Source: Aequorivita sp. CIP111184
GTDB taxonomy: Bacteria; Bacteroidota; Bacteroidia; Flavobacteriales; Flavobacteriaceae
Reading direction: 5' to 3'
Assembly (NCBI RefSeq): GCF_900489465.1
Contig: NZ_UEFQ01000015.1
Coordinates: forward strand, 186,001 to 250,000
DNA: 64,000 nt
Below, piece after piece: positions 758 through 12,105 of this stretch (position 1 is the first letter of the stretch; the number at the start of each line of letters is the position of its first letter). The position numbers and the translations under genes were made by a program. A model generated the notes under the pieces. It was not told where the DNA came from and did not search any database. It was given only the letters and a program-made list of their open reading frames with translations.

Positions 758-2290
758 TTATTCCCAATCGGGCATAAAAGAATTTGTGAATAATAACTGG
801 TCATCCTGAGCTTGTTGATCAAAAAATTGAGAGTAAATAGCAGGTATGGCTCCAAAGTTATTTTTCACTCGGGTAAATATAACACCGCCTTCGGAAGGTG
901 AAAACTTTGCATCCAAATTGTTTTCTCCGATTAAAACATCTGTTTCGAATTCTACTGGTTGATCAGGCTGTCCAATCGTATAAAGAAAAATACGACTATT
1001 AAAAATTTTATAAGAAGAGTTTTGTGCTCCATCAATGTCCCGAGTATATAATACTTTATCCGCATTTGCGGAAATATCTATTCCTCCTGCGGCACCTAGA
1101 ACATTCTCAAGAATTATTGTTTCCTCTGAATCGGGTTCAAGTGTTGCTGTATAAATACGCACATTATATCCATTGGAGCTATTCGTTTTTAATAAAACCA
1201 AATTATCATCAAATTCTGGAACGGCAACTTCTGAAATAAATGCTCCGTCGCTTGTAGTGTATTCTAATTTAAATCCACTTCCATCTGAGTTTATGGAATA
1301 TAATTTATCAAAATGCGGATAATAAATTTTACTATCATTTTGTGCCCAAGTAAATTCCAATTCTTCAGTTCTGAAACCTGCTACGGGTTTTTGACCTGTA
1401 ATTTTCCTTACATCAGTTCCATCAAAATTCATAGTGAAAATATGCGTATTGCCGCCTGAATTTCTTAAAAAAGCAATTTTATTAAGTATATTACTTTTTT
1501 TAGGTCTAAAACTATTCAAATTTTCACTTGTAAGCTGCAGCACATTAAAATCAGGAATTGTATTTCCACCAGTTACGGTGTCACTTTTGGCTCCAGAATA
1601 TATTACGAGATTTCCGCTTTTTTCTTTTACAAATAAGTAAGGATTGTTCGGTAAGGTTAATGTTTTGAACTCACTAATTAAAGAACTGACGGGATCGTTA
1701 GTATCATCGGTTACGGTTATTTGCCAAAAATATTTGGTTGCCAATTGCAGATTGCTTACTGTATATGTTGTGTCTTGCCCCACTACAATTTCCTGCATCT
1801 CGTCTGTACTTCCGTTTCTTAAATTCAAGGTATAAGTAAGTTCATCATTTTCGGGATCGGAGGCTTGCCAAATAAATTGTACTTCAAGCGGTAGCTCTTC
1901 CGCTCCATCTTCCGGAGATACTAAAATGGGAACAGAGGGTGGATTGTTATCTGAATTGGCAAGCGAAAGTTCAAAGGCAACTACAGCAGTCACTGCCTCA
2001 GTAACCGTAGTAGATTCAAAACCTGCTGCATATCCATTCAATTCTGCCTGTACAGAGTAATCATCAACAATTACATCATTCAGCCTAAATCTACCCACTG
2101 AATCTGTAAAAACTGTGGTTGAAGCTGGATTGGTGGTTATTTTTACATTTTCTAGCGCTGCACCAGTTATTTTATCTGTAACCTTTCCAGAAATGCTTCC
2201 CTTTAGCACAACATCTAACGTGTCTTCACTACAACTAAGTATCAGAAGGAAGAAACTCACTAAAAACAAGGTTATATATTTTTTCATCAT
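758..2290 (-). CDS. Lipoprotein with carboxypeptidase-regulatory, fibronectin-III-like and beta-propeller regions; last gene of the curli operon
   Basis: The 510-residue product begins with a lipoprotein signal (LLILSC, lipidated Cys about residue 20). Residues ~30-108 resemble a carboxypeptidase regulatory-like domain (GKVTDKITGAALENVKI). Residues ~115-212 resemble a fibronectin type III fold (PPSVPILVSPEDGAEE). From ~215 to the end there are repeated strands of the TolB/PD40 propeller kind (IFTMNFDGTDVRKIT, LYSINSDGSGFKLEY). It starts 18 nt after the csgG stop, so it is almost certainly co-transcribed with the secretion genes. The role is unknown. A surface lipoprotein that handles or anchors curli is an inference from position only. 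No catalytic residues were recognised. Confidence 0.8.
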   Translation of the reverse strand: MMKKYITLFLVSFFLLILSCSEDTLDVVLKGSISGKVTDKITGAALENVKITTNPASTTVFTDSVGRFRLNDVIVDDYSVQAELNGYAAGFESTTVTEAVTAVVAFELSLANSDNNPPSVPILVSPEDGAEELPLEVQFIWQASDPENDELTYTLNLRNGSTDEMQEIVVGQDTTYTVSNLQLATKYFWQITVTDDTNDPVSSLISEFKTLTLPNNPYLFVKEKSGNLVIYSGAKSDTVTGGNTIPDFNVLQLTSENLNSFRPKKSNILNKIAFLRNSGGNTHIFTMNFDGTDVRKITGQKPVAGFRTEELEFTWAQNDSKIYYPHFDKLYSINSDGSGFKLEYTTSDGAFISEVAVPEFDDNLVLLKTNSSNGYNVRIYTATLEPDSEETIILENVLGAAGGIDISANADKVLYTRDIDGAQNSSYKIFNSRIFLYTIGQPDQPVEFETDVLIGENNLDAKFSPSEGGVIFTRVKNNFGAIPAIYSQFFDQQAQDDQLLFTNSFMPDWE

Positions 2291-2308: not shown

Positions 2309-3691
2309 TTATAACTTAAAATAATAATTTAAGCCAACACCAAAATTATAGTAAAAATCGTTTCTTTTTCCTTGAACAGCTTTCTCAAGCTTATCTGTAA
2401 AAACAAGATTATGTTCTCCAAATACTTTAATCCCAACTTTATTTGAAATAAAATATTCCAGACCTACTCCATATTGAACTTTGAAAAAGGGTTCTCCCGT
2501 TTTAAATTCAAAATCATTAAACGGATCTAAGAGACTTATTATTACTCCAGAACCAGCATAAATAAATGGCGTTAATTTATCATTGGGCAATAATGCAAAT
2601 TGACCGTTTAAATCTGCACTTGCAAAAATATTTCTATATTGTCTTCCATTATCAATACGAAAAACAGAGGCTTTAAGACCTACATTGAAATACCTCCCAA
2701 AATATCTTTGATATTCTAAACGCCCTAAAAACCCTATGTCTTGCGTTGAATAATCATTGTCAGGTAAATTACCTCCTACTGAAATTCCCAAAGCGTTTTG
2801 GGCTTGCCTACTTACTTGCAATCTATCAAAAAGTAGCGTGGATTCATCCTTTTCTTTTTCTGCAACATAATCTGCAACCAATTGATCATTTACTTCCTTA
2901 CCACCTTGAGTGCTCCAAAATTGTTTTTGAATACCTTCAATAATTAGATCGTGAACCGCCTTTTCAATAGCGTCTTTCATTGCAAGTTGCACAGGTTCAT
3001 TTTGTGTTATACCAGTTTCAGCTTCTAACAATCTTTGGAATTTTACAAAACGAAAAAAACTAGCATCAATAGCCTGTGAAAGGATTGTTTTGGAAACATA
3101 TACAGTTTTCAAAATTTCTCCATTACTTGTAGATACTGCCCGAAGATAAACAGTTATTCTATCCTGTCTATATTTTGATGAACCTCCCAAGCCAAAGTAG
3201 CGTGCTCCTAACCCTCCGGTGATAATATTTGTGTCATAAGAAATAACTCCTCCTTCCAGGATTAAACCCGCGTACAACAATGGCGGGAGTGGTGGTTCAT
3301 TGGGATTTAAGTTTTTAATATATTCTTGTTTGGTGTTTCTTATAATGTTGCGTTCTGTAGAAAGATTATTCAAATTCTCTCTTTCTATTGGTATAAACCA
3401 TCCAGAATCTTCCAATGCTTTTATTAGCATAGTAGTACCGCCTTGTGAAACTGCCGTACTAAAAGTGCTACCATTTTCAACTGCTTTATATTGACCAGTC
3501 TGATCGCTAAAATTATAAACGGCCACTTCAACTGGCTGTGAAGCAGGCGGCAAATCTAAAAGTGTTTTTGTAGATTTAGAAAACTCTCCAGTTCTTGAAG
3601 GCTCCTGAAATACGGGCTGGTTAAAAAAAGCCGCACAGGATGAAAATAGAAAAATTCCCAATAACGAAATTGCTTTATAAAATATCTTCAT
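2309..3691 (-). CDS. csgG: Curli secretion channel CsgG with an extra C-terminal beta-barrel-like domain
   Basis: The 460-residue lipoprotein (lipobox FSSC, Cys 19) forms the outer-membrane pore that exports curlin subunits. Residues ~50-260 follow E. coli CsgG closely: VYNFSDQTGQYK, FSTAVSQGGTTML, DSGWFIPIERENL, GGLGARYFGLG, SKTILSQAIDASFFRF, QRLLEAETG. E. coli CsgG has 277 residues. This one continues for ~160 residues more (about 300-460) with alternating hydrophobic/aromatic strands (YQRYFGRYFNVGLKASVF, FKVQYGVGLEYFISNKVG) and ends GVGLNYYFKL, typical of an outer-membrane barrel with a terminal aromatic strand. It lies 9 nt after csgF. CsgG identity is certain; the nature of the tail is inferred from strand pattern. 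Confidence 0.95.
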   Translation of the reverse strand: MKIFYKAISLLGIFLFSSCAAFFNQPVFQEPSRTGEFSKSTKTLLDLPPASQPVEVAVYNFSDQTGQYKAVENGSTFSTAVSQGGTTMLIKALEDSGWFIPIERENLNNLSTERNIIRNTKQEYIKNLNPNEPPLPPLLYAGLILEGGVISYDTNIITGGLGARYFGLGGSSKYRQDRITVYLRAVSTSNGEILKTVYVSKTILSQAIDASFFRFVKFQRLLEAETGITQNEPVQLAMKDAIEKAVHDLIIEGIQKQFWSTQGGKEVNDQLVADYVAEKEKDESTLLFDRLQVSRQAQNALGISVGGNLPDNDYSTQDIGFLGRLEYQRYFGRYFNVGLKASVFRIDNGRQYRNIFASADLNGQFALLPNDKLTPFIYAGSGVIISLLDPFNDFEFKTGEPFFKVQYGVGLEYFISNKVGIKVFGEHNLVFTDKLEKAVQGKRNDFYYNFGVGLNYYFKL

Positions 3692-3700
3692 GAAATGTTT

Positions 3701-4117
3701 TTAATTTGGGACAATAACTTGTGTTTCTTCACCATTAGACGTGTCTAGAATATTTATAACCAACCCTTCATCAGATTGGAATATCTCAACATTCAATGTG
3801 CCATAGGTAAATGTGCCTTCTTGATCAAGATTCCCTAAGCCTCCCAATTGTTGTTGTAAAAGAATTCGAGAAATCTGACTTAAAACTTGTCTATTTAGAT
3901 TTGCGCCAAACTGCTCTAATTCAGATTGTTGATTGCTTGCGTTAGCGGGGGCTGTAAGTTTATTCTGCGAAGTTGCGGAACTTAACAACCAGTTATAATT
4001 AAATGTATCTCCTCCAAAAGCTGGATTTAATGGACTATATGAAAATTGTTGGGCAAAGCCCATTGAACAAAAGAAAAAAAGTATAACTGCGGTAAAAAGT
4101 AGTTTTGGTGCTTTCAT
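3701..4117 (-). CDS. csgF: Curli assembly factor CsgF
   Basis: The 138-residue secreted protein has a signal peptide ending near FAQ (residue 23). The mature N-terminus QFSYSPLNPAFGGD carries the NPxFGG motif that in E. coli CsgF inserts into the CsgG pore. LLSSATSQNKL matches the E. coli LLNSAQAQNS helix. The C-terminal ~40 residues (TFTYGTLNVEIF, TSNGEETQVIV) form the expected beta-rich domain. CsgF couples secretion to nucleation at the cell surface. The ATG at 4117 follows the csgE stop by one base, and csgG starts 9 nt downstream. Confidence 0.93.
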   Translation of the reverse strand: MKAPKLLFTAVILFFFCSMGFAQQFSYSPLNPAFGGDTFNYNWLLSSATSQNKLTAPANASNQQSELEQFGANLNRQVLSQISRILLQQQLGGLGNLDQEGTFTYGTLNVEIFQSDEGLVINILDTSNGEETQVIVPN

Positions 4118-4118
4118 C

Positions 4119-4922
4119 TTAATATCGGGTTAAGGTATTGTCGCCTTGTTTTTGTAATTGTTGAAGATACGAAATTGAGCGGTCTAAAGCTGTAGTAGCC
4201 ATACTTTGTAAAAAAGATTTTTTAGGTTGCGAAAAAAACTGCCAAACCAACTGATCATCAATTTTTACGGAAATTCTTGTATTACGAAATCTCCCAGGCA
4301 CTTCCTCTATGAAAATATTTTTTTCAGTTTTTATTTGTCGATTATAGTATTCTGCATAGAAGTATTTATAAAAATCACGACCTGCTTTTGTAATTGTTTT
4401 TTCTAAAACAAGGCCGTCGAGAATAATACCGTCTTGTGGAGCAGCTTGATCTGAGCCTCCTTTGTTTTCTTCTTTTAGAGCTGATTTATCCACTACAACC
4501 TCTTGATTCCCTCCTTCTGAGTTCAATTCTATTCGATCTTGACCTACAGGCTTTCCATCACTATCATATAAAATAAGTGCTAATATTATTTTTCCTTCTT
4601 CATTGTAATTGATTGCGACAGAAGAAAGTACTATTTTATCATTTCCTTTTAAAAAAAAAAGATTGGACTGATTACTTTTTGAAACATTATTGTTTACATC
4701 TGTTTTATAAACTATAAAGTCATATTTCAAATTAACATCGGTTGGCGTTAAATTTTCAGCGGTTGCTGTAAAAGTGAAGAACTCACTATCTTGTTTAACG
4801 TAGATTTTACCAACAAACTCTTTATTGTAGAATTGTGCTGTTGCACTAAAACCTATTGTAAGGATTAGTATAGCAGCAAAATGTTTTAGAAAATTTTGTT
4901 TATTTATTTTGATTAGGTTCAT
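4119..4922 (-). CDS. csgE: CsgE-domain curli specificity factor with an N-terminal CsgC/CsgH-like domain
   Basis: The product has 267 residues against about 129 for E. coli CsgE. After a signal peptide (to about SATAQ, residue 30), residues ~36-133 form a beta-rich domain whose pattern (FTFTATAENLTP, FLKGNDKIVLSSVAINY, KIILALILYDSDGKPVGQDR) resembles the CsgC/CsgH amyloid-inhibiting chaperones. A low-complexity linker (134-166) leads into a clear CsgE domain (168-258): LEKTITKAGRDFYKYF, IFIEEVPGRFRNTRISVKID, FQS-like QFFSQPKKSFLQSM. CsgE caps the periplasmic mouth of CsgG and selects substrates. The ATG directly abuts the TAA of the curlin gene upstream (TAAATG). CsgE is secure; CsgC/H kinship is inferred from pattern. 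Confidence 0.88.
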   Translation of the reverse strand: MNLIKINKQNFLKHFAAILILTIGFSATAQFYNKEFVGKIYVKQDSEFFTFTATAENLTPTDVNLKYDFIVYKTDVNNNVSKSNQSNLFFLKGNDKIVLSSVAINYNEEGKIILALILYDSDGKPVGQDRIELNSEGGNQEVVVDKSALKEENKGGSDQAAPQDGIILDGLVLEKTITKAGRDFYKYFYAEYYNRQIKTEKNIFIEEVPGRFRNTRISVKIDDQLVWQFFSQPKKSFLQSMATTALDRSISYLQQLQKQGDNTLTRY

Positions 4923-5459
4923 TTAAAAATAACTTCTAACTATAATGGTAGGGGATGCCTCAGATTGTTTAAATTTCAAAGATTTAGTGAGTTCATTCAC
5001 TCCGTTTCTTTCAAAATTTAAATTGTCACCATTTTGAATAAGATCTAAAGATATATCTTCATTTGGAGCATTTACATAATCTTTTATTTTATTGTTATTT
5101 CCATTCTGTACAAGATCAGCAATTGCTGTGTTTGCCACATAATCTAATTGGGTATCATTAGAGTTTCCATTTTGCAGCAAATTTATTTCGCTAGCATTTG
5201 TGGTACTTCTGATACTGGCGGTATTAAAATCTCCAATCTGCCTTACAAATACGGAATTACCTTCAACAGTTGCGTTTTTGGGATTTGGCGCACCAATAAT
5301 TCCTAAGTTAGCCAAAAGTTCAGGTGTTACATTTTGGCCTTGCAACACAACCTGTTTTCCATCAGTATTATTATTTTCCTTATAAGTTTGAGCTGGCGCT
5401 ACTTGTATAATTGATAAGAAAAGAAACCCGAAAGCTAAATTTTTAAATAATGTCTTCAT
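4923..5459 (-). CDS. Small curlin-repeat protein, possible CsgB-type nucleator
   Basis: The 178-residue secreted protein (signal peptide to about VAPAQ, residue 24) has a non-repetitive N-terminal third. Four curlin-like units follow: VFVRQIGDFNTASI, INLLQNGNSNDTQL, ADLVQNGNNNKIKD and LDLIQNGDNLNFER. It ends in a basic/aromatic tail (SLKFKQ..IIVRSYF) that breaks the repeat pattern, as the last repeat of E. coli CsgB does. It is first in the csgE-csgF-csgG operon, with its stop abutting the csgE start. Small size, few repeats and operon position suggest the surface nucleator or minor subunit; this is inference. Confidence 0.8.
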   Translation of the reverse strand: MKTLFKNLAFGFLFLSIIQVAPAQTYKENNNTDGKQVVLQGQNVTPELLANLGIIGAPNPKNATVEGNSVFVRQIGDFNTASIRSTTNASEINLLQNGNSNDTQLDYVANTAIADLVQNGNNNKIKDYVNAPNEDISLDLIQNGDNLNFERNGVNELTKSLKFKQSEASPTIIVRSYF

Positions 5460-10110: not shown

Positions 10111-12105
10111 TTAGTTTTGGTTTACAGTTGAAGTATTCATGTTACCTATTTGGTCAACATTACTCATATTGTTTAAACCATTTTGCATTACATCGCTCAT
10201 ATTACTAGTACCATTTTGCATTACATCACTCATGTTTAGATTACCTGTTTGTGAAACATCTGAAGTGTTTTGACCCCCTGTTTGGTAAACATCACTTTCG
10301 TTCTCATTCCCATTTTGAGCAACTGTAGAGTTATGTCCCCATCCGTTTTGAACTACGCCGCTTTTGTTAAGATTTCCATCTTGGCTAACAGTTGATGTTT
10401 GACTTGACCCTTTTTGAAGATCACGAGCTTCGTTATTGTTTCCATCTTGGGTAGTTGTTGAAACATGATTATTTCCTTGTTGCTCACTTCTCACAAAATT
10501 CTCATCACCAATCTGAGTTTGAGAAACTACTGAGTTATTAGTTCCAGTCCCGTAAATTGAAGCTTGAACAACAAATGCTTTGTTTAAGTTACCTGTTTGC
10601 GTTTGTGTAGCATCGTTATCAGTCGCAAGCTTTGTAGCTTCTCCTTGTACAATTGAAGCCTCATTCTCGTTGCCAGTTTGTGTTTGAATAGCCTTGTTCA
10701 AGGTTCCAAGTTGGGCAATATCTGATTTATTTTCATCTCCAGTCTGTATAACATCGTTATCGTTATTATCTCCAGTTTGAGAAACAATACTGTTGTTAAT
10801 ATTACCTTCTTGCTTAATCTTAGAATCGTTGTTAGTACCATTTTGCGCATCCGTGATAGTGTTGTTGTCACCTAACTGATTGTCGCCAATATAGTTAGTA
10901 GTGCCTATTTGACTAGAAGTTGCAGTATTTTCATCACCCGTTTGAAAATTAACAATCTTATTCTTGTAACCATCTTGTATTACATCAAGATTATTTCTAT
11001 CGCCTTTTGCAGTACTTTCTAGCCTGTTACGATTATCAGCTTGATTTATCTTAGCAATATTATTATTACCTTTTTGCTGAGTTACTGAAGTTTGATAAAA
11101 ACCAGTTTGATTTAAATCTATGTCGTTTTCATCACCCGTTTGACGCAAGAAAGCTGTGTTACTAGAACCATTTTGATCTGCATCGATTTTGTTGCGATCT
11201 CCTTTTTGGCCTATTGATGATGTAATGTTATTTCCGTTATATTGTTTTAAAACAGCTTCGTTACTCAATCCATCCTGGGTCAGGTTAGAATTATCGTTGT
11301 TACCATCTTGAGAGACGGTTGCCATATTTCCAAATTGTTTTTGAGTTATCTCTGAATTATTATTATTCCCGTTTTGAATTAAGTCTGAATTATTTAATGT
11401 ACCCTCTTGAAGAAGAGTAGATTTATTCAAATCTCCAGTTTGGCTCACAGTAGTGCTATTATCACTCCCAACTTGACTTAACTTGCTATCATTTTGATCC
11501 CCATCTTGAAGAACGTCGCTAATGTTTGCATTTCCATCTTGTAAAACGTCTGAAATATTATTGTCTCCAGTCTGTCTTACTTTACTGTCGTTTGCATCAC
11601 CTTCTTGTGCAACTGTAGATTCGTTAAACTCGCCTAAAAGCAAATTTGAGTCCCACTGCTCAACTACAGATTTGTTGCTATTTCCATCTTGTGAAACATC
11701 ACTCGTGTTATCTCTACCAGTTCTGCTTACTGTTCCATTACTACTAATTTGACCTTGGCTTACTCTTGAAGAGTTATTATTACCTCCCTGTTGAAGAACC
11801 ACACTTGTATTGCGTTCATCTACTTGACCTACTTTTGAATTGTTATTTCTACCAATAGAAGTCACTGTACTAGAATTGTCATCTCCACGTTGCTCTACTG
11901 TAGAGTTGTGGATTGTACCAGTTTGTGTAACATTTGAAGTATTGCTATTTCCTGTTGAAATAACTTCACTGTCGTTTCCACCACCAGATTGCATAACTAC
12001 GGAACCATTACTGTTACCATTTTGGTCAACATCGCTCACATTTGATTGTGCGAACATAATTGTTCCACACATTAGTACTGCTGCACTTAATACTACTTTT
12101 TTCAT
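10111..12105 (-). CDS. Very large curlin-repeat protein with serine-type 11-residue repeats
   Basis: The 664-residue secreted protein (signal to about GTIMFAQ) is repeats from end to end, with no other domain. The unit is 11 residues, QxGxxNxSxVx (QTGTIHNSTVEQ, QDGNSNKSVVEQ, QTGNLNMSDVMQ), roughly 55-58 copies. Serine usually fills the position occupied by alanine in CsgA and in the two ~490-aa neighbours. Aromatic residues and cysteines are nearly absent. Near the 3' end two 33-bp units are almost identical in DNA, a sign of recent repeat expansion. It lacks the CPGC tail of the neighbours and ends TSTVNQN. It is probably a structural amyloid subunit exported by CsgG, farthest from the export operon. 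Confidence 0.87.
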   Translation of the reverse strand: MKKVVLSAAVLMCGTIMFAQSNVSDVDQNGNSNGSVVMQSGGGNDSEVISTGNSNTSNVTQTGTIHNSTVEQRGDDNSSTVTSIGRNNNSKVGQVDERNTSVVLQQGGNNNSSRVSQGQISSNGTVSRTGRDNTSDVSQDGNSNKSVVEQWDSNLLLGEFNESTVAQEGDANDSKVRQTGDNNISDVLQDGNANISDVLQDGDQNDSKLSQVGSDNSTTVSQTGDLNKSTLLQEGTLNNSDLIQNGNNNNSEITQKQFGNMATVSQDGNNDNSNLTQDGLSNEAVLKQYNGNNITSSIGQKGDRNKIDADQNGSSNTAFLRQTGDENDIDLNQTGFYQTSVTQQKGNNNIAKINQADNRNRLESTAKGDRNNLDVIQDGYKNKIVNFQTGDENTATSSQIGTTNYIGDNQLGDNNTITDAQNGTNNDSKIKQEGNINNSIVSQTGDNNDNDVIQTGDENKSDIAQLGTLNKAIQTQTGNENEASIVQGEATKLATDNDATQTQTGNLNKAFVVQASIYGTGTNNSVVSQTQIGDENFVRSEQQGNNHVSTTTQDGNNNEARDLQKGSSQTSTVSQDGNLNKSGVVQNGWGHNSTVAQNGNENESDVYQTGGQNTSDVSQTGNLNMSDVMQNGTSNMSDVMQNGLNNMSNVDQIGNMNTSTVNQN
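10178..10233. repeat. Near-identical 33-bp tandem repeat inside the 664-aa curlin gene
   Basis: The 23 bases at 10178-10200 recur at 10211-10233 with one change, encoding consecutive MSDVMQNG units. The rest of the gene keeps the protein pattern but not the DNA sequence, so this pair looks recently duplicated. Confidence 0.8.

Follow-up and report, generated by a model that had tools for sequence, protein, structure and literature searches.

CsgC and CsgH, as described so far, contact disordered CsgA transiently and block its nucleation, and CsgE binds CsgA and caps CsgG (PMC5135000, PMC4838910, PMC6050966). Both CsgC and CsgH have a pI that exceeds that of CsgA by more than 2 units, and it is charge that decides inhibitory potency (Taylor et al., PMC4838910). 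According to the same report, AgfC, a weaker inhibitor, has a pI 0.5 units above that of the curlin, and the C37S substitution in CsgC has little effect. The described position of csgH is next to csgA/B (PMC3521004). As reported by Dueholm et al. (2012), csgC is missing from all Bacteroidetes genera, and this absence left open how these bacteria keep very large curlins non-amyloid inside the cell. Bacteroidetes CsgH sub-families are mentioned by Taylor et al. (2016; PMC4838910), who may already have seen the domain described below. Among the matches listed in a search of open-access papers, neither a CsgH–CsgE fusion nor recoding of csgE was found in print.

The window analyzed here is a stretch of 64,000 nucleotides from Aequorivita sp. 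CIP111184 and contains a csg locus transcribed from a single strand, with curlin genes, a small curlin-like gene, csgF, csgG, and a gene for a lipoprotein-like product (Table 1). One gene in this tight run has csgF and csgG as same-strand neighbors, a feature of csgE genes, and codes for a protein whose two halves are homologous to two named families, the CsgC/CsgH-like half (hereafter, the N-domain) preceding the CsgE half; no other CsgC/CsgH copy was detectable in the genome. The C-terminal half resembles known CsgE (PF10627; PDB 2NA4), scoring 65.5 bits against a curated PF10627 cut-off of 25, and a PDB search with the single window sequence returned CsgE only, matched to this half. A partner domain at the N-terminus is not known from E. 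coli CsgE; the CsgE chain in the PDB is 114 aa long. The first-pass annotation had confined CsgE to about residues 168–258 of 267 and had proposed a distinct β-rich domain at about residues 36–133. The Pfam match bears out the former, and the latter was recovered as seven predicted strands over residues 31–134, modeled with a pLDDT of 91.7 from nine sequences. When the whole protein was modeled, confidence was poor (pLDDT 67.5) and the two domains could not be placed relative to each other. The halves differ sharply in charge: the N-domain has a pI of 4.8 and a net charge of −3.2, and the CsgE half has a pI of 9.5.

Table 1. Features of the csg locus, numbered from the first nucleotide of the window, and genes of a related genus that are split at a run of ten A's.
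Feature	Position or locus	Strand	Basis
Fused CsgH-like + CsgE gene, 267 aa	4119..4922	−	ORF, Pfam and NCBIfam matches
Signal peptide, residues 1–30, cleavage after ATAQ	4833..4922	−	By eye from sequence
CsgC/CsgH-like β-sandwich domain, residues 31–134	4521..4832	−	Profiles, predicted structure, Foldseek
Acidic linker, residues 135–167	4422..4520	−	Low confidence in full-length structure model
CsgE domain, residues 168–259	4146..4421	−	PF10627 E 5.9e-18; CsgE 2na4 E 0.0055
csgF, next gene downstream of fused gene	3701..4117	−	PF10614 E 6.1e-33
csgG secretion channel with C-terminal OMP-barrel-like extension	2309..3691	−	PF03783 E 5e-66
Lipoprotein-like gene, CarboxypepD_reg and fn3-like domains, after csgG	758..2290	−	Pfam
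Small curlin-like (CsgA/CsgB-like) subunit	4923..5459	−	CsgA model 3.2e-05
Curlin, 491 aa	5638..7113	−	PF07012 1.7e-14
Curlin, 484 aa	8016..9470	−	PF07012 1.7e-09
Curlin, 664 aa, 15 matched repeats	10111..12105	−	PF07012 5.2e-62
Genes split at A10	L066, L083, L089–L092, L094–L096, L100, L102, L104–L109, L111, L113, L116, L118–L120, L122–L125		

Several other genes of the locus deserve comment. The small curlin-like gene directly upstream of the fusion scored 23.9 bits with the CsgA model, whose cut-off is 160, and matched Pfam Curlin_rpt at 0.025. The C-terminal extension of CsgG resembles an outer-membrane β-barrel (PF13505, 9.7e-06, 26.3 bits against a cut-off of 28.7); we know of no such extension in E. 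coli CsgG. Lookalikes of the lipoprotein-like gene follow csgH in four other loci (L135–L137 and L139), as judged by reading, Pfam having been run on the window and L135 alone; its product is a possible unrecognized curli accessory protein.

The relationship of the N-domain to CsgC and CsgH was evaluated with an alignment of 24 family members (of 25; L019, whose N-domain alignment was doubtful, was excluded here and retained in the profile used in the searches for split, separate, and multi-copy genes). At E ≤ 1, the NCBIfam CsgH model matched 23 of the 24 members (best E 2e-12) and the CsgC model 21 (best 2.4e-7), and every other NCBIfam model matched at most one. The corresponding Pfam scan gave Tafi-CsgC in 14/24 (best 9.4e-6), DUF1425 in 6/24, CsgH in 3/24, and an interferon-receptor fn3 domain in 3/24. 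Taken alone, the window N-domain scored 20.7 bits with the CsgH model (cut-off 35) and 16.8 bits with the CsgC model, below its cut-off, and the whole protein scored 17.9 bits with NCBIfam CsgH. The window domain alone is a weak match to the CsgH model; it is across the whole family that the match becomes significant.

When the family profile was compared to the PDB, two CsgC sequences came out on top (3.6e-5 and 4e-5), with CsgH at an E of 1.3. The segment that the first-pass annotation had likened to E. coli CsgC is the one that aligns with the solved protein, profile positions 39–93 corresponding to chain positions 35–88. A Foldseek search with the predicted structure of the N-domain placed CsgC at rank 2 (1.1e-4, TM 0.72/0.78) and CsgH at rank 3 (1.2e-4, TM 0.63/0.65) among 1,790 chains at E ≤ 10. 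The first rank went to an Ig-like domain of β-glucuronidase, so the fold is not specific for CsgC/CsgH; it is the sequence profile that is. Together, the profile and fold comparisons strongly support the view that the N-domain is a CsgC/CsgH homologue, and the separate relatives found beside curlin genes in other genomes (see below) lend it further support.

Features of the studied inhibitors are missing from the window domain. As in CsgH of Alphaproteobacteria (PDB 2N59; NF041112), a profile match, a seven-strand fold, and a curli locus are found; unlike CsgH, the window domain is fused to CsgE, acidic, devoid of cysteines, and under the curated cut-off. It likewise resembles E. coli CsgC (PDB 2XSK, 2Y2T) by its best PDB profile match and Foldseek rank, and differs from it by fusion, low pI, and the lack of a CxC motif. 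No cysteine was present in the N-domain of any of the 24 aligned members, so neither the CsgC nor the CsgH disulfide pattern exists there; a cysteine pair does occur in L135 and L136, which belong to the separate homologues, as read from their sequences. The curlins of the locus have pI values of 4.2–4.6, which puts the window N-domain merely 0.2–0.6 units above them, short of an excess of more than 2 units. Acidity is not a rule of the family, since N-domain pI ranges from 4.6 to 9.4 over the 24 members. We would guess that the basic CsgE half may supply the positive charge that the N-domain lacks. Anti-amyloid activity of the window N-domain may be inferred from its kinship with CsgC and CsgH.

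We searched for further CsgC/CsgH relatives in the window genome (44 contigs, completeness 99.9). At E ≤ 10, the family profile returned the fused gene alone; the NCBIfam CsgH model found it with an E of 0.0016 and gave one more match, at chance level (0.43), in a 2,495-aa frame. In agreement with the earlier claim that the locus has no csgC gene of its own, no separate csgC/csgH relative was found in the genome. The fused architecture also occurs in other genomes. In a draw of 395 genomes from the phylum, csgE was found in 41 and the N-domain (E ≤ 0.01) in 22, all among those 41. In 15 of the 22, N-domain and CsgE were fused in one frame, in two they were split at a run of ten A's, and in five they were separate genes; the remaining 19 csgE genomes had no CsgH-like match to the family profile. 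All 12 genomes of the window host's family in which csgE was found have the N-domain, fused in frame in ten and split in two. The five separate csgH-like genes, which come from two families, lie a few kb from a csgE without N-domain, directly after curlin genes (identified by their repeat motif). All five exceed the CsgH cut-off (53–62 bits versus 35), and comparison of the fused and separate forms by hhalign gave a probability of 98.6% and an E of 5e-16. Searching the same 395 genomes with the NCBIfam CsgH model (E ≤ 0.001) returned 21, missing the window genome and two others, and adding a separate gene ~7 kb from csgE (G231) and a match of 2.3e-4 inside an 836-aa frame of a genome without listed csgE (G019). 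Thirteen genomes were above the curated CsgH cut-off, six with separate, five with fused, and two with split genes.

A second draw, of 349 genomes from the host's family, gave the N-domain in 79; CsgE itself was checked in three of them (G794, G962, and G931) and, as a fragment, in a fourth (G851). None of the open frames was shorter than 238 aa, which leaves room for both halves, except for a separate copy of 161 aa and a contig-end fragment of 152 aa. CsgH–CsgH–CsgE proteins of ~405 aa are encoded by two genomes of one genus (L140 and L141), and in one genome a fused gene (L142) coexists with a separate csgH-like gene that follows a curlin-like frame (L143:883–1365). No match in this draw came from the genus with split genes.

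Elsewhere in the phylum, the position ahead of CsgE is occupied by a LysM domain (L002, L005, L006, L008, L014, L015, L016, L018, and L040). When 12 CsgE proteins picked by eye from distant lineages were scanned for LysM, nine reached the Pfam cut-off, one was just under it, and two had no match. A domain placed ahead of CsgE is not necessarily an amyloid inhibitor. In L050 and L051, the CsgE domain itself looks interrupted by an insertion, as judged by reading, and in G371 it was matched in two pieces.

A different gene organization could be observed in one genus of the window host's family, most likely Flavobacterium. Searching 249 genomes of the larger genus group with the N-domain alone yielded 60 carriers, all of which were examined. 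In 27 of the 60, the CsgH-like and CsgE halves lie in different frames; each of these genes changes frame at ten consecutive A's, no more and no fewer, and the two frames stand in the same −1 relation throughout (these are counts of genomes, not of independent events, 56 of the 60 rows being different). The first frame reads GAA (24 genes) or CAA (3 genes) followed by AAA, AAA, and AAG, i.e., XAA AAA AAA AAG throughout, and ends at a stop 1–10 nt past the run in 25 genes, and 13 and 31 nt past it in the other two. Six of the split genes come from single-contig genomes. The junction falls in the linker corresponding to window residues 135–167. A run also occupies this place in seven of the 33 genes that are in frame (A10 in L081, L115, L117, and L127, A11 in L059, and A9 in L110 and L112); in the remaining 26, the zone examined contains no stretch of nine or more A's. 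By an uncontrolled count, all seven have a stop at most 17 nt past the first run in both other frames; given such early stops, slipping in these genes would yield a short form, the inverse of the split layout, which could lead to the same pair of products. A total of 31 A10 runs occur in the 202,328 nt of loci, all of them at the CsgH–CsgE junction.

The CsgE halves of the split genes are, judging from substitution patterns, under purifying selection: their median dN/dS was 0.087 and the maximum 0.40, based on 122 usable of 351 pairs (dS between 0.05 and 1.5; the pairs are not independent). The value of 0.33 for the fused set was set aside, domain starts having been called inconsistently there (96–238 codons). 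On a CsgE tree of 97 columns with many unresolved forks, the split state takes four changes, at least two of which are forced by well-supported branches; one split gene, L123, is placed beside an in-frame gene lacking the run (support 97/86). A possible ATG, GTG, or TTG start in the CsgE frame past the run is present in 13 of the 27 split genes, and none occurs before CsgE in the other 14. Predicted RNA folding after the run gave a mean z of −1.44 in the split genes; near the CsgE start, the values were −1.47 for the 27 split and −0.67 for 32 fused genes. No conserved stem could be found after the A10 run, the consensus having no fold (−0.16 kcal/mol).

Runs of nine to 11 A's are known to give two protein lengths from tssM1 of Citrobacter rodentium and from dnaX of Thermus and of Chlorobi, the latter with ten A's (PMC4256274, PMC3711429, PMC5009743, PMC1088944), and prfB of Flavobacterium johnsoniae is reported to keep a programmed frameshift motif of low efficiency (PMC12421855). 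The split genes share with tssM1 and dnaX the length of the run and, as a proposal from sequence, the formation of two products from one gene; they differ in that the run, which is found in the relatives and not in the window, stands between two chaperone domains, each of them complete, that belong to a secretion system. A slip-prone motif at the frame junction and a selected downstream frame are features of recoding genes, and both are found in the related genus. These observations suggest a candidate recoding event that would yield a free CsgH-like protein and a CsgH–CsgE protein. Slippage is favored by the fact that all split genes have exactly ten A's, and the G that follows the run in 27/27 (A_AAA_AAG) would suit a −1 ribosomal shift. 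The window gene, in contrast to these relatives, is a plain in-frame fusion. A T10 run inside the window csgE was weighed as another possible slip site and discarded, because it is interrupted or shorter in eight named relatives.

The interpretation of the N-domain has to be weighed against two others. One is that an unrelated Ig-like domain acquired a convergent likeness to CsgC/CsgH. The recurrence of no NCBIfam families other than CsgC and CsgH in more than one of the 24 members, the top position of CsgC in the PDB profile search, the presence of csgE in 22/22 genomes with the N-domain, and separate homologues exceeding the CsgH cut-off leave this reading close to refuted, though many Ig-like domains match the N-domain model, with β-glucuronidase ranking first, and the weak single-sequence CsgH match and the Pfam matches to DUF1425 and the fn3 domain are in its favor. 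The other accepts descent from CsgC/CsgH and supposes that potent anti-amyloid activity was lost, the domain now serving the CsgE cap as a spacer, localizer, or oligomerization aid, in a place that other lineages fill with LysM. The acidic pI and absent cysteines of the window N-domain speak for lost potency, and the N-terminal slot does host other domains, LysM reaching the cut-off in nine of the 12 distant proteins. A mere spacer is hard to reconcile with the occurrence of the same domain as a separate gene in five genomes of the phylum draw and one of the family draw, or with the apparently free CsgH-like product of 27 genomes, and the basic CsgE half could provide positive charge. We hold this second reading to be doubtful, with some real chance of being right.

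The A10 junction may likewise have an origin other than programmed recoding: an assembly error, a decaying gene, a phase-variable switch, or a CsgE that starts on its own. Homopolymers are error-prone and mutable, near-copies inflate the split count, and the fused L059 has an in-frame A11 at the junction, as a length switch would give. Neither error nor switching would readily produce exactly A10, one −1 relation, and one codon pattern in 27/27 genes, single-contig genomes included, and one in-frame A11 against 27 A10 is a poor fit to a length switch; the stops in both other frames of the seven in-frame run genes may also count against such origins. The low dN/dS of the split-set CsgE speaks against decay. 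An independent CsgE start is conceivable for the 13 genes with a possible start codon past the run; the other 14 have no usual start codon, and a CsgE with a start of its own would, by reading, lack a signal peptide. An origin of the junction other than recoding is thus unlikely.

The explanation that we prefer, and regard as probable, is that a CsgC/CsgH-family domain is flexibly tethered to CsgE, bringing inhibition and pore loading to one place, with the A run giving free and tethered forms in the related genus. The fused protein would be exported to the periplasm, where its CsgE half would build a cap beneath the CsgG pore and take substrate. The tethered CsgH-like domains would crowd the cap entrance and hold incoming curlin disordered, with amyloid nucleation blocked and the pore loaded at a single spot; a CsgE nonamer would place nine such domains around the entrance. 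In the related genus, the slip-prone A run would let one gene give rise to a free CsgH-like chaperone and a tethered form. We infer, as the first-pass annotation had proposed, that one protein may both keep the subunit soluble and hand it over, and a function of the fusion as a joint chaperone-cap is plausible.

For the biology of these bacteria, the results mean that a CsgC/CsgH-type domain does exist in them, concealed ahead of CsgE. We lean towards the view that across the family an anti-amyloid chaperone is part of the pore cap, and that one genus sets the ratio of free to tethered chaperone by a conserved slip site at the A run, whichever form the unslipped frame encodes. As the natural fusion pins the chaperone to the pore, a handover model, from chaperone to cap to channel, becomes testable with single-chain constructs. 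The relatives, if recoding indeed gives them both forms, would be a natural system in which to compare the free chaperone with the tethered one, and their apparent recoding, if true, would place a recoding switch within the machinery that secretes an amyloid.
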